Source: Dysidea avara (Eukaryota > Porifera > Demospongiae > Dictyoceratida > Dysideidae). From it: a stretch of 64,000 nucleotides of DNA. The number at the start of each line of letters is the position of its first letter. The first letter of the stretch is position 1. The DNA lies in the NCBI RefSeq assembly GCF_963678975.1, contig NC_089275.1, positions 22,381,977-22,445,976 of the forward strand, in the 5' to 3' direction. The position numbers and the translations under genes were made by a program. The notes under the pieces are model-generated. The model was given only the letters and a program-made list of their open reading frames with translations, was not told where the DNA came from and did no database searches. Below are positions 8,036 through 54,283 of this stretch, one piece after another.

Positions 8036-8545
8036 TAGCTACCATTGTTCATCTCTTGTTTCACTACTTTTTATAGCTTGAAACCCTACTTCATTTTTAA
8101 ACTCATAATTTTTAATATACTATAGTTTGTTTAGTTTTTTTGTTAAAGCATACAGCTAGCTATAAACATGTGACTGTTTTATTAGGGTGACTGCTGTATT
8201 AGAGTATCTCTAGTCAGCCTGCGAAGTTGTGCTTGCCCCAAAAAGGGGTGTGGTCATCGTGGTTTCGATCGATTATTAGACTAGAGTATCTCGAATCAGC
8301 CAACTTAAGGGTGTGTGGTCACAAATACAGCTAGCGTAAAAGGGGCGTGGTCATCGTAGTCTTGATCGATAGATCGATATAGAATAAAGAATGGGCGTGA
8401 CCTTGTTACCTATCGTCATTGTATCTTGGAGTACTGGTACCTCAGTCGGAGGCCGTACAGTAGCGTAGTCTAAGCGCCTTGAATAATTTTGTGGCGTCTA
8501 TTATGCTGCTTAAAGAAAGTGCTGATATGGAAAATTAACGCCTTG

Positions 8546-8853
8546 TAGGGGCAGATCCAGACTTACAGAAAGGGGGGTCTAAAATGAACTGAGGCACTAC
8601 ATTGTCTCTGGTTTGATAAGGTGAGCCCAAAAAAAAAAAGGGTCACAGCCAACTGACAATAGCTACCCACATCACCAACCACGCATTTATAGCTGATAAA
8701 GTACATAAAAATCTTTAATAGCTCACTACACACTATTCTTATACTGTGACTGCTTTATTAGAGTGACTGCTCTATTAGAGTATCTCGATCTTGGTATATT
8801 AAAAATTTTTGGAGGGCCCCCTTTGATCCCCCTCCCCGTATCCACCCCTGCCT
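8546..8853. mobile_element. Probable MITE related to the CAGGGGCGG family
   Basis: The left edge (TAGGGGCAGATCCAGA, then GGGGGG) and right edge (CCCCCTCCCC, then ATCCACCCCTG) resemble in inverted form the ends of the MITE at 19783-20111. The middle carries the same double cassette at 8746-8790. No clean duplication is visible, so the boundaries are approximate. Confidence 0.5.
8746..8790 (+). repeat. Dispersed CTCTATTAGAG cassette, double form
   Basis: This is the best copy of a short cassette. Two GTGACTGCTYTATTAGA units follow each other, ended by GTATCTCGATC. The core CTCTATTAGAG is an 11-bp palindrome. Related copies lie near 8188, 13768-13823, 17919-17946, 19414, 19991-20047, 23890-23916, 25830-25890, 26487-26514, 30389-30416, 35835-35875, 38221-38263, 51198-51251 and 53919-53965, in both orientations. 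Most of them sit inside transposons of different superfamilies. Function unknown. Confidence 0.7.
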
Positions 8854-9514
8854 CGGTATGGTTTCGTTGGATGAAGAAGAAGACAAGCAGCCTGATTAAA
8901 GAAAAGACAAGGCGCACAGGGCGTACACTCGTCGGAACCCCAAAAGGCACATCCCACCGGTGAGTTTGTTGTTGTGGTGTAAAATGGTGACCGTGCGCTG
9001 CTTCGTTTGGGCTCTAGGCTTGCGACTGTGGTCAGTGAGTGAGTGAGTGAGATGAAATTTCGAGTTTTGACGATTTTTTTAAAATTGTATATCCGGCCGC
9101 CAGTAAGTGTTTTCTTGTTTTTAACGCTACATTTGATGTTAGATGGACTAATATTATTCCGTAAAGGTGATTTTTGTCGCGTAAGAAGTTTCTAAGCTGG
9201 TTTTTAAAGGCGGTATTTTTGGCGGCGCGCGTCGCTTTTGATGCAAACCCTACTTAAACAGTACTACCATACTGTTTGATAGTTGGAAACACCAGTAAAA
9301 AAAATTATCATAGTCTTCCCGATTCAAATAGCACTAATAACACACCAGAAGCTAACCAACTGCCGCCACAAAAAACAAATCCAGTTTTGTCACCCGCATT
9401 GGTAATTATTATTATGATTGGCATTTATAAATATATATTTATATAATTATTTATTACTGTAAAGGAATCAAAGAGATTATAATGCACAGGTACTCAGTAT
9501 CCAACTAGACAGTA

Positions 9515-11330
9515 TTGTTCCCCAATATCAAGACACGCCCATCAATTAATTCATTACGACATGATGATAATTCTGCTGCTGACTCAGATCAAGAAAAGTG
9601 TGAACTTTTCAATAAATTTTTCACTAGTGTATTTACTAAAGAGGACTGTACATCAATCCCCCAGTACCAATTAGATGGTTGCCATTCTTCACTTACAGAC
9701 ATCACAATTACTCCAGCAATAGTGTTTGACAAACTGACCCAGCTGAACCCCAATAAAGCTCCTGGCCCAGAGGGCTGGCCACTATTTTGCTTAAAAGAAT
9801 GTGCACAAGAGCTAAGTAGTCCTTTATCTTTCCTGTATAACAAGTCCTTGGAGTGTTCAGTACTACCCAAGCACTGGAAGGAAGCTCTAATAACTCCAGT
9901 ACATAAGAAGGGAGATCGCTCTAATGTTAGCAATTACCGTCCTATTAGTTTGACCTCGCCTATTTGTAGAATCTTGGAATCCATCATTAAAGACAACATC
10001 CAAGATCATTTGATGACTAATAATGTTATACTTCCTCATCAGCATGGCTTTACTCCTGGAAGATCCTGTTCAACTCAACTGTTATTGGCCATGAACGATT
10101 GGACCAAAGCGCTTGACGATGGCCATTCTGTTGACATCTTGTATTTTGATTTTGCTAAGGCATTTGATTCCGTCCCGCACAACCGTTTAATTTCCTAGTT
10201 GCAAGGGTGTGGCATATCTGGCAAGCTGCTAGCATGGGTGAAAAATTTTCTTGTGGGAAGGAAGCAGAAAGTTGTACTGAACAGTCATGCATCAGATTGG
10301 TCAAGTGTCAGTAGTGGAGTGCCTCAAGGCTCTGTTTTGGGCCCTATTTTGTTTAATATATATGTCAGCGACATGCCCTTAATAGTTAATAGTCCCATTT
10401 TTCAATTTGCAGATGACGTGAAGATGTTCAGAACTATCAGGACTGTGGACGACTTTTGCCAACTTCAACAAGATATAAATTTGCTTTTTGCATGGTCTAA
10501 GAAATGGCAACTGAAGTTCAACATTAGTAAGTGTAATTGGTTACACTTAGGTAAACCTCACGGATTTGGTGAATATGTAATTGATGGCACTACTATTACA
10601 TCTTGTGATGTTTTAAGGGACTTGGGAATAATGATTGACAATCAGTTAAAGTTTCACGATCATACCACCACAGTTGCCAAGAAAGCTAACAGACTACTAG
10701 CAGTTATTCACAAGACATTTCAGAATTTCGACCATGCTACATTCATCAACTTGTATAAATCATATATCCGCCCAGTGTTAGAGTATGGTAACATCATCTG
10801 GGGACCACAATACATTCTAGATCAAGAACAAATAGAGAAGATACAGAGAAGAGCCACAAAATTGGTCCAGGATCTTCAAAACTGCACATATAATGATCGC
10901 CTCACTGCTCTAAACTTGCCATCACTTAAATACCGCAGATGGCACGGAGATATGATAATGTTCTACCAGCTATTGCAGCCATTTCAGTCTAGATACATCA
11001 GATTTGTTTACTACTGCAACTTCATCAACAACTAGGGGTCACAATTACAAGTTATTTAAACCTCAAGCAACATCAAGAGTGAGATCTACTTTTTTCACTG
11101 TACGAGCCATCAATGACTGGAACAGTTTACCCAATCACATAGTTAATGCTCCCACACTTTATGATTTTAAAAATTTTCTTGACAGTGGCTGGTCTACTTT
11201 ATTGTATGATTATTAATTAGTTAACTATTATTGTATATAAGTTTTTGCTATGTAGTTTTTTTTTATTTTATTTTATTTTTTTATTTTTATTTATTTTATT
11301 TTATTTTTTTTTTCCCCGGGGTAACCAGCA
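9515..11330 (+). mobile_element. LINE C, CR1/L2-like, 5'-truncated and broken RT
   Basis: The frame encodes the linker and reverse transcriptase of a CR1/L2-like non-LTR element. Recognisable blocks are NKAPGPEGWP, KKGDRSNVSNYRPISL, HGFTPGRSC, ILYFDFAKAFDSVPHNRL, SGVPQGSVLGPILFNIYVSDM, the active-site FADD, and the thumb motif YIRPVLEYGNIIWGP. The endonuclease half is absent. A TAG stop at 10196-10198 lies between RT blocks, and the frame shifts near 11020 before the end (AINDWNSLPNHIVNAP). A T-rich tail follows (11255-11315). The catalytic residues are kept, so inactivation is by truncation, the stop and the shift. Confidence 0.88.
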
Positions 11331-11389
11331 CCCCTTGCCACCACCCCTAGCACTAGATGTTGAAGTGCTAGACAAAAATTGGACTGAGA

Positions 11390-12492: not shown

Positions 12493-12499
12493 CAGTCAG

Positions 12500-12670: not shown

Positions 12671-12671
12671 A

Positions 12672-13282: not shown

Positions 13283-13289
13283 ACAGCTC

Positions 13290-13549: not shown

Positions 13550-13878
13550 TAATCATATATCGTATTACAAAACTGATTCAGTGTAGGGGAGTTAATTACA
13601 GTAGGGAGGAGGGAGTTCCATAACTTTATAGTGGAAGGAAAAAGAAAATTTATATGAGTCTAGTTTGTAATTGGGTAAAGTATCCTCTTCTTATATCGTG
13701 TTCATAGGCGGTGGAGACAGGGGTGCCATGGCCCACCCACTTTTGTGGGACACCGTTCGCAAGAAAAGATCGAGATACTCTAATAGAACAGTCAGGATCT
13801 AGATACTCTAATAGAGCAGTCACAGCATTCAGAGAATCAATGTAGCAAATTACTTAGCTACGTATGTGTAGTTATAAA

Positions 13879-17740: not shown

Positions 17741-18253
17741 ATGTTCTGAATCTCTACAGCAACATATTTGTAGCTGAATTCTCTACAGGATGACTTGCTT
17801 GTAGCTGAATTGTCTATAAGATTAACTGTTTGTAGCTGAACTCCCTACAGAATAAATTGCAATGTCATATAATTCTGTAATGGAGTAAGTTATAAACGTA
17901 GCTGAATGCTCTATTAGGGTGACTGTTCTATTAGAGTATCTCGATCTCGCATATACTACACGTAGTTGGCTTTGGAATCATAACTCAGTGGTTTGTAATC
18001 CGATTCTTCTGTACTACAGCAAGGAATTTCTATGGTAATTATTCCAGCTACACACCGATTTTCAGCTTACTGCTCTAAGCGGTCTGCCTGGTAGGCGTGA
18101 AAACTAATAGTTTTTTATTCATAAAAATCGATCGCGTAATTGTGACACAGGTTGGGTTTTGTGTCATATCTCGATGGCCTTTAACTGGATTCCTTTCTAA
18201 CCACAAAAAGGCACTCCTACGATAGTTACTCCATCTACATAGAAATCTTCAGC

Positions 18254-18726: not shown

Positions 18727-19782
18727 TAAGGAGATATAATTGTTGGAGAGCAGCTATTGTCAGCAGGCTGTGACTTTTTTTTTTGGTCTTCAACTTACAG
18801 CTGGCCTGGCCCCCTCACTCTTTGGCCTGTTCCACTGCCCCTGATCATGTTGATTGGGGATCAGTGAGTTGGAGGGAATGTGTAAGTTTCTAATGATTAT
18901 TTTATACATAATAATGAGTTTGGTTATGTTCCTTCTGGTTTGGAGGCTCTAATGACTCTAGCATGTTGGTCACACTGGAGTATGGCTGCATGTCTTAGTA
19001 CAGCTTCTAGTCTCTGAATGTTAACATTAGTGTGGGGGGCCCATACAGAGGAAGCATATTCAAGGATTGGACAAACCATTGACTTGAAACATAATTATTG
19101 CTTTAATATTTGAAGGACTTTGTCTTAGATTATGATGCAGGAAACCACTTACTTGGGAAGTTTTATGAGCAACAGGCTGTATGTGGTTGTTCGACGTAAG
19201 CTTACTGTCAATTAATACTCCAAGTAGGCATGCGCACATTATGCCGGAATAATTTTTGGAATAATCGGTAGTAAAAGAATCAGGAATAATTCTAGAATAA
19301 TAGGGTGATCTTCCAGAATAATTAATTAGAATTCACACATTTTTCATGTGGTATCGCAGAAAAATTCGTAAAGGAACATCCACAATCACTGCTAGCACAA
19401 TATCGGGCAAAAAGATCGAGATACTCTATAATAGATAGGGTCCGTAACGCGAAAAATCGATATCCTCCAATCAACTACCTAACTATTGTCATGTGTTAGG
19501 CTAAGTGTAACTTGAATAACACCAGCGTGGCAGCCAAGTTTGTCACTTTCTTCTGGTAGAAAACGATACAAATGTCTTAAAATCACGTGATTTTTCGCTG
19601 CAGCGGTTCGTAGGGTTCTTCGTATGCCACGATATTCACTCTCAACATTGTTCAAGTAGTCTATCATCAACTCAAAGTATTGGTTTGATTTTATTAGTCA
19701 GTTTCTGGTGGCAGCACGATCTGTGCAGCTTTTTGACAACAGACAAAATGTTTCTTCCTCTGGAGCACAGGACAAGCAGAGC

Positions 19783-20111
19783 CAGGGGCGGATCCAGAGT
19801 CTGGAAAGAGGGGGGACACCTTGCTGAAAAAAAGTTGAAGAGCAAAAAAAAAAATAAATAAAAAAAAATAATAAAAGGTCACAACAATAATAGCTAGTTA
19901 TCCTTTAACAAATATATTATATCACGTATGTTATGTAAAATAAAATCCTATTTATAGCTTCCTAAGTAAGCTACACTTCCCCATGAACACTGTGACTGCT
20001 TTATTAGAGTGATTGGTGATTGACTGCTCTATTAGAGTATCTTGATCTTATATACATTTTTTTAAGGGAGGGAGGGGCACGTGCCCCTGTGCCCCCCTGG
20101 ATCCGCCCCTG
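19783..20111. mobile_element. MITE CAGGGGCGGATCC, 5-bp duplication
   Basis: The inverted ends are CAGGGGCGGATCCAG and CAGGGGCGGATCCAGG, flanked by AGAGC on both sides. The MULE's right arm (around 23490) preserves the empty site, GACAAGCAGAGCAGCAACTG. This proves the insertion and fixes the duplication at 5 bp. The interior has poly-A and poly-T tracts and a double cassette at 19991-20047. It is non-coding. Confidence 0.85.
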
Positions 20112-23200: not shown

Positions 23201-25069
23201 TCCGAGATTTGAATATCGATCACGTGAGTGCCTGTTTCATGCATTGGATTGCTCTATGCGTTTACAGGGCGAGAAAGCCGTATTGTTAGGTATTTATAAG
23301 CTTTGTATCATTGCTGTTGGAGACTGTCTCACTGATGTATCAACCATTCTGGTATTTGTTTGCAAAAATCGCGTCATTTTGGCCGAATTTCAGCATATAG
23401 ATGGCTAACAAGCTTCAATTATAATCATACTCCGCATGCAGGTGCTTTACCTAGTACTGGTCATTGCTGACCCACGGCGCAGTTGCTGCTCTGCTTGTCC
23501 TGTGCTCCAGAGGAAGAAACATTTTGTCTGTTGTCAAAAAGCTGCACAGATCGTGCTGCCACCAGAAACTGACTAATAAAATCAAACCAATACTTTGAGT
23601 TGATGATAGACTACTTGAACAATGTTGAGAGTGAATATCGTGGCATACGAAGAACCCTACGAACCGCTGCAGCGAAAAATCACGTGATTTTAAGACATTT
23701 GTATCGTTTTCTACCAGAAGAAAGAGACAAACTTGGCTGCCACGCTGGTGTTATTCAAGTTACACTTAGCCTAACACATGACAATAGTTAGGTAGTTGAT
23801 TGGAGGATATCGATTTTTCGCGTTGCGGACCCTATATAATAGAGCTCAGCAGTCATTTACCCTAAAAGAACAGTCAGACAAGCTTAGTTGTGACTGCTCT
23901 ATTAGAGTATCTCGATCTTTGGGTGTAGTTTTTATGCTTGCAAGTGGTTATATTTTGAGCTGCAGAAGAATATCCATTTGACTTTTACATTTCCAGAAAT
24001 TACTCCAGGAATATTTGGGAATAATTTTAGGAATAAAAAAAGAACTGCCAGAAAGAACAATAGGCAATTTAAAAGGCATAATGTACTCAAGCCTAACTCC
24101 AAGGTATTTGGTGGTTGTAACTTCCTTGATAGGGGATATTGCGATAAAGTAAGTATGAGTTATTGGGCTCTTTATATTTGTAGTGCGTAAAAATTTGCAT
24201 TTTGAAGGGTTGAAAGGCATTTGCCATTTAAGTGACTATTCTTCAAGGGCATCTAAATCTCACTGTAGAGAGATGCAATCATCCTTCAAGTAAACATAAG
24301 AATATAAAAGGACATCATCAGCATAGAGTCTTACTTTGCTTCAAACACAAGTAGTGGAGATCATCGATATACATCAGAAATAATAGGGGGCTAACACTGT
24401 TCCTCCATGGCACACCTGAAAGTACATGAGTTGCATGACTTTTAATGTTGTTTACAATGACACGCTGGGATCTGTTGGTTAGAAAAGCTTGGAGCCAAGT
24501 TAATATTGGTCCACAAATTCCGTAATGTGAGTTTCTGATACATCCGGGCATGTGGGACTTTACCAAAAGCTTGCTAAAGTCAAGAGTTAAAACAAAAAAA
24601 AGAATGTGACCCTCAAAAAGGCTATGGTGAAAAAAGATGTGAAATCTAAGGTGGCTGCCAAGAAAATGATTGTGATGGTAGGTTAATGGTAAAAATTTTA
24701 ATAACAACAATTCAGGTGAATTTTGGTGCCGCTTGGTCTTGGCACAAAATTCACCTGAATTGTTGTTATTAAACTTTTACCATTAACCTACCATCACAAC
24801 CATTTCTTGGCCGTCACCTTGGATTTCATATCTTTTTTCACCATAGCCTTTTTGAGGGCTGCACTCTTTTTACAGCTTAGCTGTTTTGGATTAGATTTCA
24901 CTTCTTTTTGTATTTGTATATCCCAAAGCTGGCCTATGGCCATGCAGCTTTAGGGCTTTTTCAACCTATCTTTTTTTCTTTATCACAGGAAGAAGAAAAG
25001 ATGAAGCAAATGTTAAATACTTTAAATATTTCTGTTTTTATCAGTAAATGTACTAATTATATATATAAT

Positions 25070-25600: not shown

Positions 25601-25980
25601 GGCCACTCCAATTGGTAATTATGTTTCTGGTCAACCGCCCGCATCCTTTTTTGGAGAATGTTAAATTTCAGAAATAACACGAGATACATGGGTAAAATTC
25701 CCGCATCAGCTTTTTGAAAAACCTGGATTTCAGAAACAAATATTGGGCTGCAACAAGTATGCTAAATCTAACCATAATTTGTATTTTATCAGTGAAAACC
25801 TGCAAGAAATGGACATAGTGCATAGTACAGATCGATATACTCTAATAGAACAGTCAGTAAATCACAAAAGTACTCTAATTGAGCAGTCACTTCATTGTTA
25901 CTTTGGTGCTGAATTCCGTCCGCCCGCACCTAGGACTCATTTTCAAAGGACCAGAAACATAATTACCAATTGGAGTGGCC
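25601..25980. mobile_element. Harbinger-type MITE (TTA duplication)
   Basis: The ~30-bp inverted ends begin GGCCACTCCAATTGGTAATT. TTA is duplicated at 25598-25600 and 25981-25983. The matching tails of the other Helitron copies (for example 37725: CACACCTACAATAACTGC) show the empty site. A TTA target with GG-starting ends fits PIF/Harbinger. It carries two cassette copies (25830-25890). Confidence 0.82.
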
Positions 25981-26519
25981 TTACAAAAACTGCTATAAAA
26001 GGCGAATGCAATATCAGATTGCCTTGAAATTTGGCACACTGAAGGGGGTATAAAGGCGCATCTCTGTACCAACTTTGGCTACAATACGATAAACAGGCAA
26101 AGCATTATGAGCGATTATACAAGAAAAATAACACCAATATGTTGTCACGCCTATACGGTAAACCGCGTATGGGAAGAAGCTGAAATTCGGTGGGTGAATA
26201 GGTTAACTATTGAACCTCAAACCTTTTGTGGTTTGAAAGAAATCGAGCTAAAAACCAGGAAGATACAACGAAAAAACCAACAGTGTGTAACAATTACGCA
26301 ATCGAGATTAGCTAATAAAAACCTACTACTTGCCACGCCTACCAGATAAACCGCTTGGGGTAATGCTTTGAAAATCGCTGTATAGATGGAGTAATCATCT
26401 TAGAAAGACTCTTCAATGGTGTAGAAGAATCAGACTTAAAGCCACGGAGTTATAACACGAAATCCAACTTGGTGCAGCAGGTGCGAGATCGAGATACTCT
26501 AATAGAGCAGTCACCCTGA

Positions 26520-28280
26520 AGAGAATTCAAGAGATCAGCTACAAACAAGTAACCTGTATAGAGATCAGCTACAAACAAATCACCCTGTAGAGAGATCAGC
26601 TACAAACAATTCACCCTGTAGAGAGAACAGCTAGAAGAAGTTACCTCGTAGGGAGTTCATGCAACTATGGAAAGAGATAGTTCAGCTAGAATAAATCACC
26701 TTGTAGAGTTCAGCTACAAAGAAACTATACCATGTAGAGAGTTCAGCTACAAACAAATCGCCCTGTAGAGAGATCAATAGAAGAAATTACCTTGTAGAGA
26801 GTTCAGCTACAAACAAATCACCCTGTAGAAAGATCAGCTAGAAGAAGTTACCTTGTAGAGAGTTCAGCTACAAAGAAACCATCATGTAGAGAGTTCAGCT
26901 GCAAACAAATCACCTGTAGAGAGTTCAGCTACAAACAAATCTCCCTATAGAGACATCAGCTAGAAGAAGTTTCCTTGTAGAGAGTTCAGCTACAAACAAA
27001 TCACCCTGTAGAAAGATCAGCTAGAAGGAGTCACCTTGTAGAGAGTTCAGTTACAAAGAAACCATCATGTAGAGAGTTCAGCTACAAACTAGTGACCTTG
27101 TAGAGACATCAGCTAAAAGAAATTACCTTGCATAGAGTTCAGCTACAAAGAAACCATCATGTAGAGATTTCAGCTGCAAACAAATCACCTGTAGAGAGTT
27201 CAGCTACAAACAAATCTCCCTGTAGAGAGATCAGCTAGAAGAAGTTTCCTTGTAGAGAGTTCAGCTACAAACAAATCACCCTGTAGAAAGACGAGCTAGA
27301 AGAAGTTACCTTGTGGAGAGTTCAGCTACAAAGAAAACATCATGCAGAGAATTCAGCTGCAAACAAATCACCAGTAGATAGTTCAGCTACAAACAAAACT
27401 CCCTATAGAGAGATCAGCTAGAAGAAATTACCTTGTAGAGAGTTCAGATACAAAGAAACCACCATGTAGAGAGTTCAGCTGCAAACAAATCACCTGTAGA
27501 GAGTTCGGCTACAAACAAATCTCCCTGTAGAGAGATCAGCTAGAAGAAATTTCCTTGTAGAGAGTTCAGCTACAAACAAATCACCCTGTAGAAAGACGAG
27601 CTAGAAGAAGTTACCTTGTGGAGAGTTCAGCTACAAACAAAATTCCCTATAGAGAGATCAGCTAGAAGAAATTACCTTGTAGAGAGTTCAGATACAAAGA
27701 AACCACCATGTAGAGAGTACAGCTGCAAAAAAATCACCTGTAGAGAGTTCGGCTACAAACAAATCTCCCTGTAGAGAGATCAGCTAGAAGAAGTTTCCTT
27801 GTAGAGAGTTTAGCTACAAACAAATCACCCGGTAGAGAGATTAGCTAGAAGAAATTACCTTGTAGAGAGTTCAGCTACAATGAAACCACCATGTAGAGAG
27901 TTCAGCTGCAAAGAAATCCCCCTGTAGAAAATTCAGCTACAAACAAATTGCTCTGTAGAAAGATCAGTTAGAAGAAGTTACCTTGTAGAGAGTTCAGCTA
28001 CAAAGAAACCATATGCATTCTGTAAAGAACTCAGCTGCAAACAAATCACCTGCACAGAATTGTGCTACAAACAAATCACCCTGTATAAAGATCAACTAGA
28101 AGAAGTTACCTCGTAGATAGTTCAGCTATAAACAAATCACCCTGTAGAGAGATCAGCTAGAAGAAGTTACCTTGTAGATCGTTCAGCTACAAACAATTCA
28201 CCCTGTAGAGAGAGCAGCTAGAAGAAGTCACCTTGTAGAGTGTTCAGTTACAAAGAAACCACCATGTAGAGAGTTCTGCA
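26520..28280 (-). repeat. ~31-bp minisatellite array of copy M
   Basis: Reverse-strand units (TACAAACAAATCACCCTGTAGAGAGATCAGC and variants) run for about 1.75 kb. The same three unit types as in copy 1 alternate, and some ~185-bp blocks are repeated almost exactly (for example around 27230-27420 and 27530-27700). This indicates local unequal exchange or slippage. Confidence 0.85.
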
Positions 28281-28789
28281 ATAAATAAATGTATTATTTA
28301 AATATAATTTGTACATTTACTGATAAAATCAGAAAGTACATTTGCTTCATCTTTTCTTCTTCCTGTAGTAAAGAAAAAAAGACAGGTTAAAAAAGTCCCA
28401 ATGCCGGCCATAGGCCGGCTTTGGGGTATACAAATACAAAAAGAAATGAAATCTAATCCAAAACAGCCAAGCTGTAAAAAACAGTGCGGCTCTCAAAAAG
28501 GCTATGATGAAAAAAGATATGAAATCCAAGATGGCGGCCAAGAAATGGCTGTGATGGTAGGTTAATGGTAAAAATTTTAATAACGGCAATTTAGGTGAAT
28601 TGTGTGCCAAGACCAAGCGGCACAAAAATTCACCTGAATTGTCGTTATAAAATTTTTACTATTAACCTACCATCACAGCCATTTCTTGGCCGCCACCTTG
28701 GATTTCATATCCTTTTTCACCATAGCCTTTTTGAGGGCTGCACTGTTTTTTTACAGCTTAGCTGTTTTGGATTAGATATTCATTACAGA

Positions 28790-29395
28790 ACTCTATATAC
28801 ATGGTGGTTTCTTTGTAACTGAACACTCTACAAGGTGAATCCTTCTAGCTGATCTCTCTGCAGGGTGAATTATTTGTAGCTGAACTATCTACAAGGTAAC
28901 TTCTTCTAGCTGATCTCTCTACAGGGTGATTTGTTTGTAGTTGAACTCTCTACATAATGGTTTCTTTGTAGCTGAACTCTCTACAAGGTAGCTTCTTCTT
29001 GCTGATGTCTCTACAGGGTCACTAGTTAGTAGCTGAATTCTCTACAAAGTGACTTCTTCTAGCTTACAGAGTGATTTGTTTGTAGCTGTTAATTCTCTAC
29101 AGGTGATTTGTTTGCAGCTGAACTCTCTACATAATGGTTTCTTTGTAGCTGAACTCTCTACAAGGTAGCTTCTTCTTGCTGATGTCTCTACAGGGTCACT
29201 AGTTAGTAGCTGAATTCTCTACAAGGTGACTTCTTCTAGCTGATCTTTCTACAGAGTGATTTGTTTGTAGCTGTTAATTCTCTACAGGTGATTTGTTTGC
29301 AGCTGAACTCTCTACTTGGTGGTTTCTTTGTAGCTGAACTCCCTACAAGGTAACTTCTTCTAGCTTATCTCTCTATAGGGTGAATTGTTTGTAGC
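28790..29395 (+). repeat. ~31-bp minisatellite array of copy P
   Basis: Forward-strand units of the same family. A ~180-bp block (TTGTTTGTAGTTGAACTC region at about 28925 and again near 29105) occurs twice in tandem. The array is cut by the hAT-type element at 29396 and shortly resumes at 30300. Confidence 0.82.
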
Positions 29396-30299
29396 CAGAG
29401 GCGTAGCTAAGGGGGGGCAAGGGGGGGTATTTGCCCTCCCATCACTAAATGATTTTTTTAAAACCTTCGTCACAAGTTTACCAGTATTAAAATGACTGTA
29501 AATTATGTACACTACTACGCGGTATCACCAGGGGTTGCTAGTGAATGCGCACACACAACATTCAACTCGCTCGTGAACCCATCGAACGAAAATATTAGAC
29601 ACATAGACTTCTATATTTAGCCTAGATTACTCGCGTGATAGAACATTTTTGAATCTAAAAAGAGTAACCCCGCTTCTCCACGGAAGGAGTCACAACTCAC
29701 AAGTGACAAAGGAAACCAGATGATGCTACGAACCTACTGTCTACGAGGTGATAAAGTGTTAGCTAAATAAATGTACCAAGTTTATTTTATCGAGTCGATC
29801 ACACTGGACCTTTGTACGTACGGCAGTGCAGTCTGTTTTTACTTTGTCAGTCAGCCGGTCAGGTGGATCAGTCAAGCTTAAAAGTTCTGCTAGCAAGACA
29901 GGTGGGATTTCGTGCAATACATGGCATTTGAATTTCGCTGAGTGAAGTGAGTGAATACGTCATCCTGTCAGCAGTATGCTAGGACTGCAGCACAGGCTGT
30001 GGCTAACGTAAAGTAACCTGTATTTGCACTAAAGTATTAGCTCTACCGGACTGTGGATGAATTTGTTGGAGTACAGTTGTGGCACGTGCGATGATGCTCG
30101 ACGAATATAGCTACCTCGATTGGAAGCAGTCAGTACTGAAATGGTTACGTAGCTAGTTATTTAAGCTGTAATAATACGACACCGTATGTTGGCTAGCCCA
30201 CCATTGGGTCATTAGCCTTTTTTTCAATTATGAATGATTTTGAGTGTTTCGTGGGGGCATGCCTGCCCCTCCATCACCTTCTGGCTAGCTACGCCCCTG
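29396..30299. mobile_element. hAT-type non-autonomous element
   Basis: The ends are CAGAGGCGTAGCTAAGGGGG and, inverted, CAGGGGCGTAGCTAGCCAG. TTTGTAGC is perfectly duplicated at 29388-29395 and 30300-30307, an 8-bp hAT-like duplication within a minisatellite unit. The 904-bp interior has no open frame of note. Confidence 0.8.
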
Positions 30300-31244
30300 T
30301 TTGTAGCTGAACTCTCGGCAGGGCGATTTGTTTGTAGCTGATCTCTATACAGGTTACTAGTTTCTAGCTGATCTGAATTCTTTTCAGGGTGACTGCTCTA
30401 TTAGAGTATCCCGATCTCGCACTTGCTACACCAAGTTGGATTTCGTGTTATAACTCCGTGGCTTTAAGTCTAATTCTTCTACACCATTGAAGAGCCTTTC
30501 TAAGATGATTACCCCATCTGTAAAGCGAATTTCAAAGCATTATTCCAAGCGGTTTTTCTGGTAAGCGTGGAAAGTAGTCGTTTTTATAATATATTCTCGA
30601 TTGCGTAATTGTTACACACTGTTGATTTTTTCATTGTATCTTCCTGGTTTTTAGCTTAATTTCTTTCAATCCACAAAAGGTTTGAGGTTCAATAGTTAAC
30701 CTATTCACCCACCGATTTTCAGCTTCTTCCCATAAGCGGTTTACCCTGTAGGCGTGACAACATATTGGTGTTATTTGTCATGAACAATCGCTAATAACTC
30801 TTTACCTGTTTATTGCATTCCAGCCAAAGTTGGTACAGAGATGCGCCTTTATATCCCCCTTCTGTGTGCCAAATGTCAAGGCAATCGGACATTGCGTTCG
30901 CGTTTTATAGCAGTTTTTGTAAGTGTGCGAAAAGAAAAATAAGATAAAAACGAAGAAACTAAGCCAATTTGTGAAGTCGCATATCTCGGGAACGCTTAAA
31001 GCGATTTTGCTCAAATTTGGAATGTGGTGTACTGAAGTTGGAGGGCGTGTCCACATCAAAAATCGTCTTGTTCCATGAAGGCAGCACAGAGCAACGGAGG
31101 TGCTAAAATTGCGTTTTCTTTCTTCCTGTCATGCAATATATACTCACAGGTGTTGCGCGCCAGCTTCTTGGACCGCACGACACACTACTGTGTGTCTTGA
31201 TAGAAGTTACTTCACTCGAAGACATATACGGTAGAAACTAAGGG

Positions 31245-35750: not shown

Positions 35751-35934
35751 CCGTAATTTGCTTTTTTTCGTTGTAAAATAATTTTCGTATACAAGATTTG
35801 TACGAAAATTTCTTGCACGAAAATTTTTATACAAGATCGAACTACTCTTAGACTAATAGAGCAGTCATTTACGTAAATCATACAAAAATATTTTTACACG
35901 AAAATTTTTTGCACGAAAATAAAGCAAATTACTG
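35751..35934. mobile_element. Mariner-type MITE (TA duplication)
   Basis: The ends are CCGTAATTTGCTTT and, inverted, CAGTAATTTGCTTTATTTTCG, flanked by TA (35749-35750 and 35935-35936). The 184-bp interior contains repeated ACGAAAATTTTT and an altered cassette (35835-35875). It is probably a relative of the TA-targeting MITE at 6995-7556 but with different ends. Confidence 0.68.
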
Positions 35935-37434: not shown

Positions 37435-40400
37435 TCAAGACACACGGTAGTATGTCGTGCGGCCCAAGAAGCCGGCGCGCAACACCCGTGAGTGTATTAA
37501 CAGGAAGAACGAAAACGCAATTTTCGCACCTCCGTAGCTCTGTGCTGCCTTGATGAAACAAGACGATTTTTGCTGTAGACACACCCTCCAACTTCAGCAC
37601 TCCACATTCCAAATTTGAGCGAAATCGCTTCCAGCGTTCCCGAGATATTCGACTTCAAAAATTGGCTTAGTTTCTTCGATTTTTTCTTCTTATTTTTCTT
37701 CCTCTTTTCGCACACCTACAATAACTGCTATAAAACTCGAACGCTATATGCGATTGTCTTGAAATTTGGCACACAGAAGGGGGGTATAAAGGCGCATCTC
37801 TGTACCAACTTTGGCTGGAATACGATAAACAGGCAAAGCGTTATGAGCGATTATTCACGAAAAATAACACCAATATGTTGTCACGACTACAGGGTAAACC
37901 GCTTATGGGAAGAAGCTGAAAATCGGTGGGTGAATAGGTTAACTATTGAACCTCACACCTTTTGTGGTTTGAAAGAAATCGAGCTAAAAACCAGGAAGAT
38001 ACAACGAAAAACAACTGTGTGTAGAAATTACGCAATTGAGATTAGCTAATAAAAAACAACTGCTTGCCACGCCTACCAGATAAACTGCTTGGGGTAATGC
38101 TTTGAAAATCGCTGTATAGATGGAGTAATCATCTTAGAAAGGCTCTTCAATGGTGGAGAAGAATCAGACTTAAAGTCACGGAGTTATAACACGAAATCCA
38201 ACTTGGTGTAGCAAGTGCGAGATCGAGATACTCTAATAGAGCAGTCGTCTTAATAGAGCAGTTACCCTGAAGAGAATTCAAGAGATCAGCTAGAAACAAG
38301 TAACCTGTATAGAGCAAACAAGTCACCCTGTAGAGAGATCAGCTACAAACAATTCACCCTGTAGAGAGATCAGCTAGAAGAAGTTACCTTGTAGGGAGTT
38401 CATGCAACTATGGAAAGAGATAGTTCAGCTAGAAGAAATCACCTTGTAGAGTTCAGCTACAAAGAAACCACCATGTAGAGAGTTCAGCTACAAACAAATC
38501 GCCGTGTAGAGAGATCAGCTAGAAGAAGTTACCTTGTAGAGAGTTCAGCTACAAAGAAACCATCATGTAGAGAGTTCAGCTGCAAACAGATCACCTGTAG
38601 AGAGTTCAGCTACAAACAAATCACCCTGTAGAAAGATCAGCTAGAAGAAGTCACCTTGTAGAGAGTTCAGTTACAAAGAAACCACCATGTAGAGAGTTCA
38701 GCTACAAACTAGTGACCTTGTAGAGACATCAGCTAAAAGAAGTTACCTTGTAGAGAGTTCAGCTACAAAGGAATCATTCTGTAAAGAGCTCAGCTGCAAA
38801 CAAATCACCTGTACAGAATTCAGCTACAAACAAATCACCCTGTAGAAAGATCAGCTAGAAGAAGTTACCTTGTAGAGAGTTCAGTTACAAAGAAATCACC
38901 ATGTAGAGAACTCAGCTACAAACTAGTGACCCTGTAGAGAGATCAGCTAGAAGAAGTTGCCTTGTAGATAGTTTAGCTACAAAGAAACCATTCTGTAAAG
39001 AACTCAGCTGCAAACAAATCACCTATACAGAATTCAGCTACAAACAAATCACCCTGTAGAGAGATCAGCTAGAAGAAGTTACCTTGTAGAGAGTTCAGCT
39101 ACAAACAAATCACCCTCTAGAAAGATCAGCTAGAAGAAGTCACCTTGTAGAGAGTTCAGTTACAAAGAAACCACCATGTAGAGAGTTCAGCTACAAACTA
39201 GTGACGTTGGAAAGACATCAGTTACCTTGTAGAGAGTTCAGCTACAAAGAAAACATCATGTAGAGAGTTCAGCTGCAAACAAATCACCTGTAGAGAGTTC
39301 AGCTACAAAGAAATCTCCCTTTAGAGAGATCAGCTAGAAGAAGTTACTTGTAGAGAGTTCAGCTACAAAGAAACCATCATGTAGAGAGTTCAGCTGCAAA
39401 CAAATCACCCGTAGAGAGTTTAGCTACAAACAAATCTCCCTGTAGAGAGATCAGCTAGAAGAAGGTTCCTTGTAGAGAGTTCAGCTACAAACAGATCACT
39501 CACTACAGGTTGATTTGTTTGTAGTTGAACTCTCAACAGGATAGTTTCTTTGTAGCTAAACTCTCTGCAAGCTGATTTCTTCTAGCTAAACTCTCTTATG
39601 GGTGATTTGTTTCTAGCTGATCTCTATAGTGGGTGACTTGTTTCTGGCTGAACCTCTACAGGATGATTTGTTTGTAACTGAGCTCTCTACAGGATGGATT
39701 CTTTGTAGCTCAACTCACTGCAAGGTGATTTCTTCTAGCTGATCTCTCTACAAGGTGACTTCTTCTAGCTGATCTCTCTACTGGGTGACCTGTGTCTAGC
39801 TGAACTCTCTACAGGGTGATTTGTTTGTAGATGAACTCTCTACAGGATGGTTTCTTTGTAGCTGAACTCTCTGCAAAGTAATTTCTTCTAGCTGATCTCT
39901 CTACAGGGTGACTTGTTTCTAGCTGATCTGTCTAGTTGGTGACTTTTTGTAGCTGAACTCACTACAGGGTGATTTGTTTGTAGTTGAACTCTCAACAGGA
40001 TGGTTTCTTTGTAGCTAAACTCTCTGCAAGGTAATTTCTTCTAGCTAATCTCTCTACAGGGTGATTTGTTTCCAGCTGATCTCTATAGTGGGTGACTTGT
40101 TTCTGGCTGAATCTCTACAGGGTGATTTTTTTGTAGCTGAACTCTCTTCACAGTGATTTGTTTGTAGTTGTACCCTCTACAGGGTGATTTGCTTGTAGCT
40201 GAATTCTCTACAGGACGGTCTTTTTGTAGCTGAACTCACTGCAAGGTCATCTCTTCTAGCTAATCTCTCTACAGAATGATTTATTTTTAACTGATCTCTA
40301 TAGTGGGAGACTTGTTTCTAGCTGAACTCTCAACAGGATGGTTTCTTTGTAGCTGAACTCTCTGCAAGGTGATTTCTTCTAGCTGATTGCTGTACAGGGT

Positions 40401-40900
40401 TCTAGCTGATCTCTCTACTGGGTAACTTGTTTCAAACTGAACTCCTTCTAGGGTGATGTGTTCATAGCCGAACTCTCTACAAGGTGATTTGGTTGTAGCT
40501 GAACACTCTACAGGGTGACCTGTTTCTAGCTGAACTCCCTACAAGATCTGTTGGTAGCTAAACTCTCTACAGGGTGACTTGTGCCTAGTTGAACTCTCAA
40601 CAAGGTGATTTTGTGTAGCTTAACACTCTACAGGGTGATTTTTTTGTAGCCGAACTCTCTGCAGGGTGATTTGTTTGCAGCCGAACTCTCTACAGGGTGA
40701 TTTGTTTGTAGCTGAACTCTCTACAGGATGGTTTCTTTTTAGCTGAATTCTTTACAGGATGATTTGTTTCTAGCTGAACTCTCTACAGGGTGATCAGTTC
40801 ACAGCTGAACCCTCTACAAGGTGGCTTCTTCTAGCTGATCTTGCTACAGTGTGATTTTTTTGTAGCTGAACTCTCTGCAGGGTGCTTATTGTCATCAGAG
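37435..40900 (-). mobile_element. Helitron-like copy M2, fused to the array of P2
   Basis: It starts with TCAAGACACACGGTAGTATG (inverted 3' end). The tail region continues to a cassette (38221-38263). Reverse-strand minisatellite follows to about 39495. At about 39500 the unit orientation flips to forward and runs to about 40890. The M2 head and P2 linker expected between the two arrays are gone, and P2 also lacks its tail. Deletion between inverted arrays would explain this. Confidence 0.68.
38280..40890. repeat. Two opposed ~31-bp minisatellite arrays
   Basis: Units are in reverse orientation at 38280-39495 and in forward orientation at 39500-40890. The forward part holds unit types rarer elsewhere, such as CTATAGTGGGTGACTTGTTTCTGG. 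The switch lies at ACAGATCACTCACTACAGG. The two halves could pair as a large hairpin. Confidence 0.82.
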
Positions 40901-49255: not shown

Positions 49256-51091
49256 ATCTGGCATTGCTGGACTGTGAACGTGCATTTGAGGGTGGAGGCT
49301 ACAGGAAGACATATTTAAAGTTGGAAGCACCCTTGCAAAACTAATTGATGAGGGTTATGGCCTATCCTTGTTAAACTAAGAAAGTAAACTCAAGTGCAGC
49401 CAGTGTCCCTTATTCTACCAGTTGTATTTTTGATGTATTGCATAGAGTATGTATGCTCACTACGTTGGCTGTTCCACCCATGTTTCTGCAAGCCTATGTC
49501 TACAGTACTGTATGTGTGTGTGTATCTAAATACTCGTTTATCACAAGACCATATTATATGATTTCAATCTAATCCTAAAGAAGGCCGATACAGAGTATTC
49601 CATACCCCCTACATCTCATCTGATTATCAGTGCACTTGCATTTATCAAGTAGTACATGAGTTGTTAATCATGTTGTGTATACACTTTTGCTAGCACAGGA
49701 ACTGAATGTATACACACCTACCAAAGGGCTGCAGTAGTGTTAGTGTAGTAGTGCAAGTTAGTTGTAATAAGTAAGCAGTTGACATTTTAAATGCACTTGT
49801 ACACGTAGAAGTACTTTAATTGCTACTTGTACTTTAAAATGTACTTGTCCTTCACTGATTTAAGTATGCCTAGCTAATGGCTATAAAGAAGTTACAGATT
49901 CACACCTATTAAGTATATGTTTGGCCAATTTTGTGATAGCGTATCGTCAGACTTGATTAAAACAACTGGTAACAAAGTTATGCCAAACACCATTGATATC
50001 AGTTCTTGGATACATCACAACTGAGCACTTGTCATCAAGTTGCAGTGGAATCAATGCCTCATTTTATAGCTTTAAGATAAACATTTTAAAGCACACCTAT
50101 TTTTCATTAGGCTGTGAACTTGAAGTTTACCTATTTTTTATTACTTGCATCAATGTTATAATTGGGTTGGGTCATCCAGATTATCTTCATCATTTGGGTC
50201 GTATTTTGTCTGGATCAAATGGGTCTTATACGCTTTCCAGTTGAGATGTGAGATAAATTAAAAAAGTATTGATGGAAATGCAGTTGTATGTACTCAAGAA
50301 ACTTATATTCGAGAATGTGTCTTTAGGGATATGTGGAGCAGCACCCACTTATCGGGACTGTATGCTACTGTCTATTGGCATGCATCTTTGGTATTATGCC
50401 CATATAATATTAGGATTGAAGGTTGTTACTTGTAGGCAACTAGTCTGACTTTAAGCAACGGGGCCATATCCACATATGAGAATTGCAGGTTGCTGCAGCT
50501 GTCATACCTAATTAATTGATTATGAGTGTTAAAATACTCTTTGGTACAGCTACTTGTCTCCTTGCAGATGATCCTTCCTATAGTGTAATGATCTGTATAA
50601 TAAATGTAGGATTAACTAGTGGAACTTTAGGATAATGGATATTATGCCAAATCTATGCCGATTACTATTTCTTTTACTAAACCCAGTACTTGACACTTGT
50701 CTTTATTGTGATCGAACTGGGGTCAATCGGTTCAGCAGTACTAACCCACTTACAACCCTAAATTTTATTCCTGCAGACATTGTTGAATGGATTTCCCTAT
50801 ATAATAATATAAGGAATTCTGCTCAAACACAATTTTTCCTTTTTTGTCAGTACTATTTCATTTAGTTGGTCTCAAAGTGTCCATTATATGGTAGTTCTAC
50901 TGTATACAAGTGCACTAGGTCATGATCTGGTTACATATCAGCCAGTAAGAACTTGCTACAATAGCTTAACCACACATGTATCAGTTTATACTGTACAAGG
51001 ACATAGATCGTAACAAAGAGAGGAAGCCAACACTCAGAAACAACAGCTTCACTGTCAACAGAAATCCCTTAGTACTCTTTAGATGTACCCT
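49256..51091. other. Unique middle of the hAT-type element, no gene
   Basis: Between the paired arms lie about 2.7 kb of AT-rich sequence. Frames are short, with no transposase motif. It may be captured non-coding DNA. I see no other feature apart from the MITE at 51092-51441. Confidence 0.4.
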
Positions 51092-51441
51092 CAGGGCCGC
51101 CCACAGGGGGGGGGCAACTGGGGCACTTTGCCCTGGGCCCCAGCCTTAAAGGGGCCCCAGGAGGCCTCATGAAGGGCCCCTTGAATACCTGTTAGAAGAT
51201 TGATATACTCTAATAGAGCAGTCAGATCTAAATACTCTAATAGAGCAGTCACAGTATTCTTCAGAGGAGCAGTGTAGCAAGCTTATAGATAAGGAGATAT
51301 GGTTGGTGATGGGTAGTTATTATCATTGCCAGCAGGTTGTGACCTTTTTTTTTTTTTTTTTTGGTCTTCACCTTACAACTTGGGTCAAGGCCCCACTTTA
51401 ACTCTTTGCCCTGGGCCCCTTAATTTCTCTGGGCGGTCCTG
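51092..51441. mobile_element. hAT-type MITE CAGGGCCGCCCA
   Basis: The ends are CAGGGCCGCCCACAG and, inverted, CAGGACCGCCCAGAG, with perfect 8-bp duplications TGTACCCT (51084-51091 and 51442-51449). The 350-bp body contains GGGGCCCC blocks, a double cassette (51198-51251) and a long T tract. It is the best preserved relative of the MITE split at 13703-18843. Confidence 0.85.
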
Positions 51442-52837
51442 TGTACCCTCAACTACACATACACACCATACATCTCGATAGCTGTCTGACTGAACAATAA
51501 CATGACACGCATAACCAAATGCATTACTGCCTTTTCAGTCTATTCATACTCACTCATGTTTTAACACGCACTGTCAAACTGGTAGTTGGCTGTTTCAGTT
51601 GCTTAACAAACACAAGCTCCATCATACTCACACACTCAGTTTCAGCAATGACTGTGAGGAGCTCTGTACTGAAAAATCAGTGGAGGCTGTCAATCACAAT
51701 GTGTGAAAACGTTCTGCTGCTAAAAAATGGCATGAGAAAAAAGGGCTCTTAATTAGGCCTCTTAATTGGTCTCCCCTTAAAGTCATCCTCTCCCTCCTTT
51801 TGTGCTGTCAGCCTGGCAGGGAACACGACATTGTGACCAATGTGCATGTCTGTAGCAAGTTAGTATCCCGTACAACATGTGCAACATTATCTGGAAAAAA
51901 ACAATGAATAAATTTTTCTCTAAGTTGAAAAGAAATTCTCCCATACAGGTATACCATATTGAATTTCCTATCTTTGTTCCTATTGTGGAAGTATTAAATC
52001 ATCAAACTCATCTCGGCTGTATGCAATCACCAAGAAAATGTTCCATAGATTGGGGTTCTTTGGTTATAATAACTTGCTCAGAATTTCATCTAGAAAATAA
52101 ATTAAGAATATTGTACTCAATACATGTGATCACAGATCATCACACATAATCATGACCACATCATGAATCAGTGATAAAAAATTATGTAAATATACAGAAG
52201 TCAGCACTGCCATCCATAGGGAAAGGAACATCCACATTGTTCAGTAATACACAATCAAAAATGCATCTTGGCAATTGCTATCTGCTCAGAAACAAAATCG
52301 ACACTAAATGGCTTGTTCAGTTAACTACCATGGTGTTCATAACACCAAGAGTTGATAATAAATACATTAATAAAAAGAGTTGGTAATACTCCAGCCTCTA
52401 CTGTTAACACTTCAGTGATAACACTGTGACACATCCATCAAACTGGTGTTGGTTAATACTAACAAGAATTAAAACACAGAATGCTCCATACTCACTTTCA
52501 ACAATGGCTGTGAGTAGTTCTGTGCCATGATTGTCTAACGCCAGACTGGCACTGAGGTTGCCAATCACGATGTGAGAAAACATTCTGGTGCTGAAAAACG
52601 GCAGAACGGGAGAAAGAGGCGTCTCCCCCTAAAGTGATTTTCACCCTCCCTTTGTACTGTCAGCCTGGCAGGAAACACAGCTTAGAGCAACGTGCCCTGG
52701 CAATGTGTGTACAAGAGCAGATTAGTATCCGGTATAACATGCGCAACACCGACTATCCGGAAAAAAATAATGCGTGAAAATTTCTAAGTCCAAAGTGTGC
52801 CCAAAAAAAAAATTCGCCCGACCCGGTTTCAACGCTG

Positions 52838-53156
52838 ATACACTTCCTAAACATATCCCTGCTTACTCCACCATCATCATAAGCCACTTCATCTTTAAAA
52901 CGTATACGTAAAGGATATTCTTTCTGGGCATCTTTGCTTTGGAAAAGTCCCATGACATCTCCATAGATTGCATTTCTTCTGATAAGGTGAGCAAAAACAG
53001 GCTGAACAGGACAAATGCTGTGCACGAAATCTAAGCGTCTGCCATCAACTGTAAAAAATACAAAGTAAATGCAAAATGTATATCTAATATCGTTAACTTA
53101 CCAATCTGAATAAATTTTTCATCAGCTATTTTGGCACCTTTGTTATCATCAAGCTG
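52838..53156 (-). CDS. HECT gene exons 9-10a (HECT N-lobe)
   Basis: Exon 9 (53156-53102) encodes LDDNKGAKIADEKFIQI and joins in phase to 53048 (VDGRRLDFVHSICPV). The frame continues as YPLRIRFKDEVAYDDGGVSRDMF, the conserved strand-loop-helix of HECT N-lobes. It is then cut by the hAT-type element at 52837. Confidence 0.7.
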
Positions 53157-53249
53157 CTAAAGTATAAATACAAAATTACTGCATGGATGGTTTTAATTGT
53201 AAACAGTAACCTTATTTAACAGTAACCCCCCCCCCCCCCCCCAAGGCAA

Positions 53250-53895
53250 TTTTTGAAAAATACATGCTAAAATGCTGAAATTTGGAGACATTTCCACATA
53301 AAATGCTTCAGCTTTGCTGCATGTAGATATTTTATATATCGCCCAATTGGCTCTCTGTAGCATTTGTTAATGAAAAGGTTTTGGAAGGTTCAGACAACCA
53401 AGCACATGTGCAAGATGTACCTTCTCACAAGTGTACAAAATAGGTGCATGGCATAATAATGTTGAAACTGAAAAATTTTGAAAATTGCTGGAATGATGTG
53501 AGATTGAACTTACAGCATTTTCAATGTGCACCTGAATTAAATAAAACTATGCACCTTAGCAGGAAGATTTGAAAAACATTTGAAAAATACATGGTAAAAT
53601 GCAAAAATTTGGAGACATTTCCACATCAAATGCTTCAGTTATTTTATATACTGACTATATAGTTCTCTGCAGAATTTGTTAATGGAAAGGTTTTGAAAGG
53701 TTCAGACAACCAAGTGCATGTACATGATCACAATTGTACTACAACAATAGGCGCATGGTATAATAATAATGTTGAAAATTTTGAAATAAGTGAGATTGAA
53801 TCTGAGAGCATTTTAATGTGCACATGAATTAAGTATGGCTATAAATAATATTAAAAACTATCCATCTTTGCAGGAAGATTTGAAAAATTCCATAG
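53250..53895. repeat. Tandem duplication of ~320 bp in an intron
   Basis: Two units (about 53250-53570 and 53580-53895) share GAAAAATACATG, AAATTTGGAGACATTTCCACAT, AAGGTTCAGACAACCAAG and GCAGGAAGATTTGAAAAA in the same order. A C run (53227-53242) before and a G run (54163-54173) after suggest that the whole of about 53226-54190 is one repeat element with a cassette (53919-53965). It lies in the intron between exons 8 and 9 of the HECT gene. Confidence 0.65.
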
Positions 53896-54283
53896 CAGAA
53901 CTAAACATCCACTGAACGTTCTATTAGAGTAGTTTTGTAACTGCTCTATTAGAGTATTTCGATCTTGTACACCTCCAATACTGATCCGGTCCTTTTTCCA
54001 TAACTTTTAGCATAAATCCACTGATAATTCCTTGGAAAGATGTTTACAAGGTGAGTTTATAGGTCAGTATTTGTATATATAGTGGTCATATACTTATGCT
54101 AAGACAAATTATCATTACATTCTTGAACATATTGATCAAGTAAATCCTAAAACTGAAGAAAGGGGGGGGGGGGCTTCAGCCCCAAAAGCCCCCCTCCCCA
54201 TGATCAACAAAAGCTTTTCCCAGAGACAGTTACAAACATGATCAACTACATGATCACTTACAAAACCACCTCATTATCAATAC

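Follow-up and report, generated by a model that had tools for sequence, protein, structure and literature searches.

Why do transposable elements with differing ends carry the same short internal sequence? The question is raised by a 64,000-nucleotide stretch of the Dysidea avara genome (NC_089275.1, positions 22,381,977 to 22,445,976; hereafter the window), in which an initial annotation had noted about 14 copies of a motif with a palindromic core, in repeats assigned to several superfamilies. The recurrence is confirmed: the window holds 14 matches to CTATTAGAGTATCTCGATC (at most three mismatches) against 0.01 expected in shuffled sequences, as well as ten exact copies of CTCTATTAGAG, and the coordinates listed were correct. 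Recurrence amid such differing ends suggests a shared signal which may aid the spread of the transposons that carry it.

Composition and abundance of the cassette

The core TGACTGYTCTATTAGAGTATMTCGATCT resolves into a 17-bp unit (TGACTGYTYTATTAGRG), usually doubled and completed by a single tail, in a 28-bp cassette. The GTGACTG that had been described as preceding the core represents the first bases of this unit, which also holds an 11-bp odd palindrome (CTCTA-T-TAGAG). The motif described as following the core does exist as the tail (TATCTCGATC; TATMTCGATCT), but it normally stands only after the last unit of a cassette. At least two units, at varied spacing, are found at 50 of 62 tail sites. 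The cassette is sharply bordered and its unit syntax is ordered and directional; the number of units varies among copies of one family, and in the pogo-type lineage G and in lineage H the tail is different or altered. Twelve consensus rows from nine lineages, whose sites were retrieved through their resemblance to the tail motif (M6 alone through head-to-head units), agree across the 28-bp core except at positions 7 and 21; row I, a tie of two copies, has two extra C-to-T differences.

The 551-Mb genome contains 56,546 exact units and 21,543 exact 28-mers, the reversed-pattern controls giving none; these matches were counted genome-wide and host classes were read in sampled loci. The window plus 20 fetched 10-kb pieces, each picked for holding exact hits, amount to 264 kb with 157 units in 86 clusters (L001-L008 excluded from the counts), where three controls from a first-order Markov model gave 15, 12 and 11. 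Because of this manner of selection the host shares obtained from L009-L028 are biased. The sampled hits come from more than one family; a single family behind all genome-wide hits was what the annotation had named as fatal to the idea of a shared cassette. A GTDB scan with a 19-mer returned no matches.

Host elements and their ends

Clear terminal inverted repeats (TIRs) with a target site duplication (TSD) were found at three of the 15 window cassette positions. The annotation had called the host at 51198 a hAT-type MITE, which is borne out by an element at 51092-51441 (lineage A, M2) with TIR CAGGGCCGCCCA, the 8-bp TSD TGTACCCT and a cassette at 51197-51251 (-). The host at 19991, described as a MITE with a 5-bp duplication, is likewise real: it extends over 19783-20111 (lineage A, M1), has TIR CAGGGGCGGATCCAG and TSD AGAGC, and carries its cassette at 19993-20048 (+). 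The duplication is repeated in other copies of this TIR class, the CAGGGGCGGATCCAG elements (n=15) having a 5-bp TSD in 11 cases, a 6-bp TSD in one and none in three. PIF/Harbinger elements combine a TWA TSD with a long TIR, and the element at 25601-25980 (cassette 25829-25889, -), already thought to be Harbinger-type, fits this type with a perfect 32-bp TIR and TTA, as a single copy read to its ends.

Beyond the window positions, clear TIR and TSD pairs were obtained at five of 22 positions probed, plus one weak pair. A blind TIR scan, which is insensitive, placed 22 of the 157 units inside elements that it recognised, barely more than expected by chance given that these elements occupy 10% of the DNA; none of its three TTAA elements held units. 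The hAT elements are characterized by an 8-bp TSD with a short TIR. Such a TSD was present in 18 of 18 end pairs of M6/M7 (from 21 loci), and also in M2 (two copies), L018, L025, L028 and L065, the last containing nested cassette-bearing MITEs. M6/M7, M2, L018, L025 and L028 are hAT-type, as assigned by their ends rather than by a transposase, while M1, M4 and the CAGGGGCGGATCCAG elements depart from the 8-bp rule and form a separate class whatever their transposase. A further family has the TIR CAGTGGAACCTC, which we take to be pogo/Tigger-type, and 12 of 18 copies are flanked by TA at both ends; TIR and TSD fit a pogo/Tigger-type host, again assigned by ends and not by a transposase.

The remaining window copies are less well delimited. 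The mariner-type assignment at 35835 is weak: the single unit at 35835-35867 (-), whose junction with the tail is altered, lies in an ill-defined host of lineage H, one copy of which is TA-flanked and has an imperfect TIR. No clean TIR and TSD pair was read within the window for the copies at 13768, 19414/23890 and 53919. They correspond to two units and a tail of the M3 type in lineage A (13767-13822, -); the tail half of a cassette with three mismatches (19414-19432, -), its flank resembling the other arm of an M5-type repeat; an M5-type copy (23860-23918) in which one unit with its tail (23891-23918, +) is accompanied by a degenerate inverted unit (23860-23876, -); and two units plus tail at 53913-53965 (+). 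This last repeat indeed carries a cassette, as reported, and belongs to M4, other copies of which have ends with a 5-bp TSD. A search for an autonomous partner in the M4 neighbourhood found three broken ORF pieces beside one copy, with no Pfam match. The others are two units with a degenerate tail (8171-8210, +), two units plus tail of lineage A (M8; 8747-8791, +) in a CAGGGGCGG-like host at about 8546-8850 with decayed ends and no exact TSD, and a solo unit with a decayed tail (4989-5005, +).

Helitrons lack a TIR, end in a 3' hairpin followed by CTRR and insert in AT. The copies at 17919, 26487, 30389 and 38221, annotated as Helitron-like, are two subfamilies (H1 and H2) of one element in which, as claimed, the cassette holds a fixed position. 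It has two units plus tail in the H2 copy (17903-17947, +), one unit plus tail in the H1 copies at 26486-26513 (-) and 30390-30417 (+), and two units, one of them decayed, plus tail in the H1 copy at 38220-38264 (-). No convincing TIR was seen: of the window copies, three show no TIR and TSD pair and the fourth a weak one (at 30400). In these Helitron-like copies the 3' hairpin is followed by CTTGATA and not CTRR.

Sharing and conservation

The cassette is thus common to hosts with 8-bp, 5-bp, TA and TTA duplications and to a TIR-less family. Among 18 lineages, picked because they bear the cassette, 12-mers from the unit were found in all 18 (one mismatch allowed), whereas other 12-mers reached at most five, the best of these overlapping the tail edge; the remainder resemble the one shuffled control. 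Apart from the cassette, which hosts of several transposition classes have in common, nothing shared is detectable in most of the lineages compared. The premise that such elements share no internal sequence by descent fails for one group, lineage A: M1, M2, M3 and M8, as well as L020, have parts of one longer internal module in common. Since this module holds the cassette and occurs in families with different ends (5-bp TSD in M1, 8-bp in M2), modules can evidently pass between element types.

Conservation at the subfamily level was measured in one pair. Between H1 and H2 the cassette is 94.4% identical and the flank 68.6%, with none of 381 flank windows as high; with the window copies only, the values are 95.2% and 67.2% (0 of 374). 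If H1 is taken by itself, the cassette is equalled in conservation by 22 of 382 flank windows. In the pogo-type family, the sole one sampled through its flanks (20 of 40 scored loci fetched, picked by length), unit 1 has diverged by 7.6% and the flank by 7.9-8.8%, 76 of 118 17-bp windows being as low or lower. As the unit diverges like its flank, there is no sign that single copies act in the host. A number of families are of very recent origin (in M4, 35 of the 40 loci scored match the query perfectly across 96 bp), so that presence of the cassette within a family needs no selection. Of the three options offered by the annotation, namely a tiny mobile unit, a preferred target and a host-recognised signal, the last fits best, with the amendment that the conservation observed is at the level of transposon subfamilies rather than of single copies.

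Origin and possible role

Our preferred reading, held with somewhat less than even confidence, is that the cassette is a predicted cis-acting protein-binding site, kept because it aids the spread of non-autonomous DNA transposons. A putative factor other than the transposases would read it, probably one of the host's DNA-binding proteins, active where the elements jump, and this reading would raise their amplification. Element lineages may gain the cassette through exchange of internal sequence and would then keep it because of the benefit to amplification. The sharing between classes, the sharp borders, the preservation between H1 and H2, the change in unit number, the lack of single-copy conservation in the pogo-type family and the shared module are observations; the reader and the amplification step are inferred. 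A stronger version, in which the cassette is a common 'passport' that lets hAT-, pogo-, Harbinger- and Helitron-like elements alike amplify once a single non-transposase factor has read it, and is thereby a unit of selection passed between unrelated selfish elements, is conceivable but rather unlikely.

A substantial possibility, if a doubtful one, is that a functionless cassette was passed on by passive module exchange (nested insertion, recombination or template switching during gap repair) and became common through successful young families. The module shared in lineage A despite different ends, the youth of M4, the minisatellite-like expansion and contraction of units, single copies that evolve like their flank and the nested MITEs of L065 are all in keeping with this. 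Yet passive exchange should also bring donor flank and other modules, and only the cassette stands out in the 18 lineages; nor does it account readily for a cassette kept at about 95% between H1 and H2 while flanks dropped to about 67%. Convergence, in which the same long binding motif evolved separately in each lineage under selection for one factor, is improbable. It would agree with consensus rows that toggle at the same few positions and with units having a different or altered tail in pogo-type and lineage H elements, but 26 of the 28 positions are common to 11 of the 12 rows, which makes repeated independent origin very unlikely, and lineage A shows longer homology.

The annotation's suggestion of a tiny mobile unit, which would insert into other transposons in its own right, seems most unlikely, even though sharp borders and many unrelated contexts would be expected of one. 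No TIR was seen, a flanking direct match of at least 5 bp occurred at 0 of 62 sites (shifted controls 0-1), and no clean empty site was found in the families searched with joined flanks, where only deletions or unit loss turned up. Among the matches listed for M4, the 40 scored loci include 35 with a gap of cassette length (L060 of these was read), one that reads full (L059), three partly deleted and one without the cassette. This last copy was considered as an ancestral form and rejected, its junction occurring once in the genome within two mismatches. For M6, one of the 40 scored loci among the matches listed lacks the cassette, through a deletion that removes flank too; of the 20 pogo-type copies found through their flanks and read, 18 show a unit that can be recognised and two a unit damaged by small indels. 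The H2 search was uninformative, because its 36 upstream bases matched the query's own locus alone.

Head-to-head unit pairs occur at 1142 sites in the genome. A small TA element with this inverted arrangement as its TIR was considered and dismissed: 19 of 20 such loci align as M6/M6b/M7, with both ends and the 8-bp TSD in 17 of these, and L048 resembles M5.

The ordered, directional syntax is also reminiscent of a promoter module, and transposons might have captured an snRNA-type promoter element or another ordinary host-gene signal. We regard this as very unlikely, as single copies are unconserved in the family tested, and an snRNA proximal promoter element is rejected since the cassette does not lie directly upstream of snRNA genes (within 130 bp at 0 of 6 U2 loci read). 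Units farther from U2, such as those some 500 bp upstream in L054, resemble background copies. A U6 search gave no hits in any sequence and so has no bearing on the matter.

Narrow searches of the literature gave no match to six motif strings and no paper on unrelated transposons sharing a motif. The closest precedents are the CERP2/CELE2-HIM-17 system and the coral CMITEs. The Caenorhabditis CERP2 and CELE2 MITEs carry thousands of copies of an m1m2 motif pair, which is arranged divergently in one family and in tandem in the other and is bound by HIM-17, a transposase-related, sequence-specific protein that acts as a transcription factor (PMC9757741). Ordered pairs of one motif in more than one transposon family are found here also; the differences are that two related MITE families are involved there, and several transposition classes with a longer conserved core here, and that binding and promoter activity were demonstrated there (PMC9757741), whereas the present cassette is a predicted site. 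The CMITEs form tandem arrays; their internal region is better conserved than their ends and is surrounded by different TIRs, and the authors suspect that it has a role in transposition (PMC2872659). Lineage A likewise has an internal region common to families with different TIRs. However, CMITEs are all TTAA/piggyBac-type with about 75 bp shared (PMC2872659), whereas the hosts examined here have 8-, 5-, 3- or 2-bp TSDs or no TIR, piggyBac-type ends were not encountered, and outside lineage A little is common beyond the cassette.

If the cassette works as predicted, the success of MITEs would hinge on a common accessory signal as well as on the ends that the transposase reads, gene-free modules would move between unrelated selfish elements, one protein would have tens of thousands of transposon-placed binding sites, and the bursts of some MITE families would acquire a testable handle. 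Transposons bearing sites for one host factor, as predicted here, are otherwise described for Caenorhabditis Helitrons carrying heat-shock elements, where a selfish benefit to mobilisation was speculated upon (PMC6927752), and for several C. elegans transposon families with transcription factor motifs (PMC8896005). Those are known transcription factor motifs; here it is one 28-bp cassette of ordered units and a tail.

Structure and abundance of the cassette

The cassette found in the window is directional, being composed of 17-bp units (TGACTGYTYTATTAGRG) the final one of which is followed by a tail, TATCTCGATCT. Alignment of 64 tail sites from 264 kb (the window plus 20 fetched 10-kb pieces; all fetched pieces and loci are here given L numbers) places the conserved block between the T of TGACTG and the TT after CGATC; information drops sharply on both sides except for the trace of an upstream unit. 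The window copies noted in the initial annotation are borne out, since 14 tail sites occur within ≤3 mismatches where 0.01 would be expected. The 264 kb, of which 20 of the 21 pieces (the window being the exception) were picked for exact matches, contain 157 units in 86 clusters, where three Markov controls gave 15, 12 and 11. In the whole 550.8 Mb genome, as raw counts with hosts unsorted, the 19-mer from the initial annotation has 20,099 exact matches, the unit has 56,546 and the 28-mer TGACTGYTCTATTAGAGTATMTCGATCT has 21,543, the reversed-pattern control being 0 in each case.

One unit precedes the tail at 12 of 62 sites, two at 44, three at 4 and four at 2. Adjacent units are spaced, start to start, by 17 bp in 24 of 58 pairs and by 20–47 bp in the rest. 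Copies of a pogo-type element possess one or two units, those of two other families one versus three, and copies of two more differ by additional repeats of ~21 or ~25 bp. Units are arranged head-to-head at 1142 sites; 19 of 20 loci fetched at such pairs align as the repeat families M6/M6b/M7 with the pair in mid-element (both ends and an 8-bp TSD were read in 17), while the remaining locus, L048, resembles family M5.

Host elements and the sequences they share

The claim that the hosts belong to different classes stands, with TSDs of 8 bp, 5 bp, TA and TTA measured here; the superfamily names are ones which we presume. M6/M7 (TIR TAGGGACCCGCCGATTATGC) have an exact 8-bp TSD in 18/18 end pairs from 21 loci. 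A TSD of 8 bp also flanks two copies of M2 (TIR CAGGGCCGCCCA), that of the window and that in L010, and single elements in L018, L025, L065 and L028. The CAGGGGCGGATCCAG class has a TSD of 5 bp in 11/15 cases, 6 bp in one and none in three; units are present in 12 of the 14 elements checked, several loci having been fetched because of the cassette. The pogo-type element (TIR CAGTGGAACCTCAG) has TA on both sides in 12/18, and a Harbinger-type element (25601–25980) has a 32-bp TIR and TTA. The subfamilies H1 (26487, 30389 and 38221) and H2 (17919) are bordered by a minisatellite at one side and have a 3' hairpin at the opposite side; no convincing TIR was found at the ends examined, and we call them no more than Helitron-like. 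Of 15 window cassette positions probed, 12 gave no convincing ends; among 22 positions elsewhere this was so for 16, and a further one was weak. The 264 kb were also scanned blindly for TIR+TSD pairs, a method that depends on the ends being intact and that picks up many nested pairs within long inverted repeats. It placed 22/157 units in recognised elements covering 10.4% of the DNA, and thus by itself reveals little excess.

The accompanying premise, that such hosts have no internal sequence in common by descent, fails for families M1 and M2. Blastn of 31 flank sets with the cassette masked joined some of them into lineages. For M1, M2, M3, M8 and L020 (lineage A) the homology is longer: upstream of the cassette they have portions of a common module, with the blocks GACC-A(n)-GGTC, ACAATAGCTACC and GCTACACTGC; likeness is 68% over 155 columns for M1–M3, 74% over 136 columns (1e-18) for M2–M3, and 73% over 81 columns (8e-9) for M1–M2. 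Since M1 has a 5-bp TSD and M2 one of 8 bp, and their TIRs differ, either internal modules move from one type of element to another or ends are replaced around modules. No exact TSD was found at the M3 and M8 ends examined. Lineage J (L012), which still resembles M3 over 30 bp, may not be a distinct lineage.

Unit 12-mers reach, with one mismatch allowed, 18/18 lineages, all picked for having the cassette and 7 known here from one locus. Other 12-mers, the cassette class taking in those ≤3 mismatches from it, occur in three, four and five lineages in 313, 32 and 8 cases, where a single shuffled control gives 276, 24 and 0, and all 8 overlap the tail edge. Across the 28-bp core of unit plus tail, twelve consensus rows differ from one another at positions 7 and 21 only, save that row I, built on two tied copies, has two further C-to-T differences. 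The rows represent 9 lineages and do not include pogo-type G or lineage H, which have other tails.

Several arrangements were seen in passing. At L065:325–754 an L028-type MITE with an 8-bp TSD and a cassette is nested in another cassette-bearing element (L027 type). Two copies of family M4 ~15 kb apart (L025:5358–6151 and L026:916–5476) agree in the 9 bases that flank them on either side and in their 5-bp TSD, which suggests local duplication; the latter span also contains an H1 cassette (3961–3994). Broken ORFs beside an M4 copy (L011:5546–6663, minus strand, and 7787–8251, plus strand) resemble a ZMYM/hAT-type transposase; three pieces of them had no Pfam match at 0.001. In the window a long minisatellite of ~30-bp units (CTGAACTCTCTACAGGGTGA...), in tens of copies, adjoins H1 elements (26500–29400 and 38260–40800), and a TTAA-flanked long inverted repeat without the cassette lies at 6909–8111.

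Mobility, constraint and a possible role

The suggestion that the cassette is itself a tiny mobile unit is unlikely, since there was no flanking duplication at 62 sites and no clean empty site among the matches listed. Flank-joined searches, expected to rank cassette-free copies first, were scored for the best 40 candidates each. For M4, 35 were split at a cassette-length gap (L060 among these was read), L059 reads full, three are partly deleted and one lacks the cassette, its junction occurring once in the genome; for M6 one lacks it through an 85-bp loss which takes flank too. Eleven other loci gave no clean empty site and two paralogues with fewer units. Among 20 pogo-type copies read from the best 40, 18 retain a recognisable unit and two have it damaged by small indels. 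In the H2 search the upstream bases matched their own locus alone, and hence have no bearing on empty sites.

Where conservation of the cassette is seen it is between transposon subfamilies. In a set including loci picked for exact matches, H1 and H2 are 94.4% identical in the cassette and on average 68.6% in the flanks (0/381 windows as high), as against 97.2% and 92.6% within H1 (22/382) and 98.9% and 89.6% within H2 (1/381); the four window copies alone give 95.2% and 67.2% (0/374). The pogo-type copies were found through their flanks only; in them, unit 1 is 7.6% off consensus (25/329), the left flank 7.9% (98/1243) and the right flank 8.8% (216/2468), with 76 of 118 17-bp windows diverging as little as unit 1 or less; unit 2, where present, is 3.0% off (5/164). 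Because unit 1 diverges like its flank, there is no clear host constraint on single copies.

The core is long and fixed, the units are ordered with one tail and vary in number, the hosts differ in transposition class, and the cassette is preserved from one subfamily to the other though not copy by copy; such are the traces that a binding site helping transposon lineages to spread would leave. One transposase serving all classes is hard to envisage; the simplest guess is that a host DNA-binding protein reads the cassette. The main rival to this binding-site reading, and a plausible one, is passive module exchange in young families. Precedents are the m1m2 motif pair carried by MITEs of the CERP2 and CELE2 families, to which HIM-17 binds (PMC9757741), Helitron heat-shock elements, for which the authors speculate on a selfish benefit (PMC6927752), and coral CMITEs, with an internal region more conserved than the TIRs (PMC2872659). 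In the portions consulted, none of these papers describes a single long cassette common to elements of several transposition classes.

Lastly, five of the six U2 snRNA loci read (L049–L053) have in common an element upstream, AACCTGAGAAAAACGTACA, together with a TATA-like box, TATAAAAG; the sixth (L054) possesses the box with a different upstream sequence.
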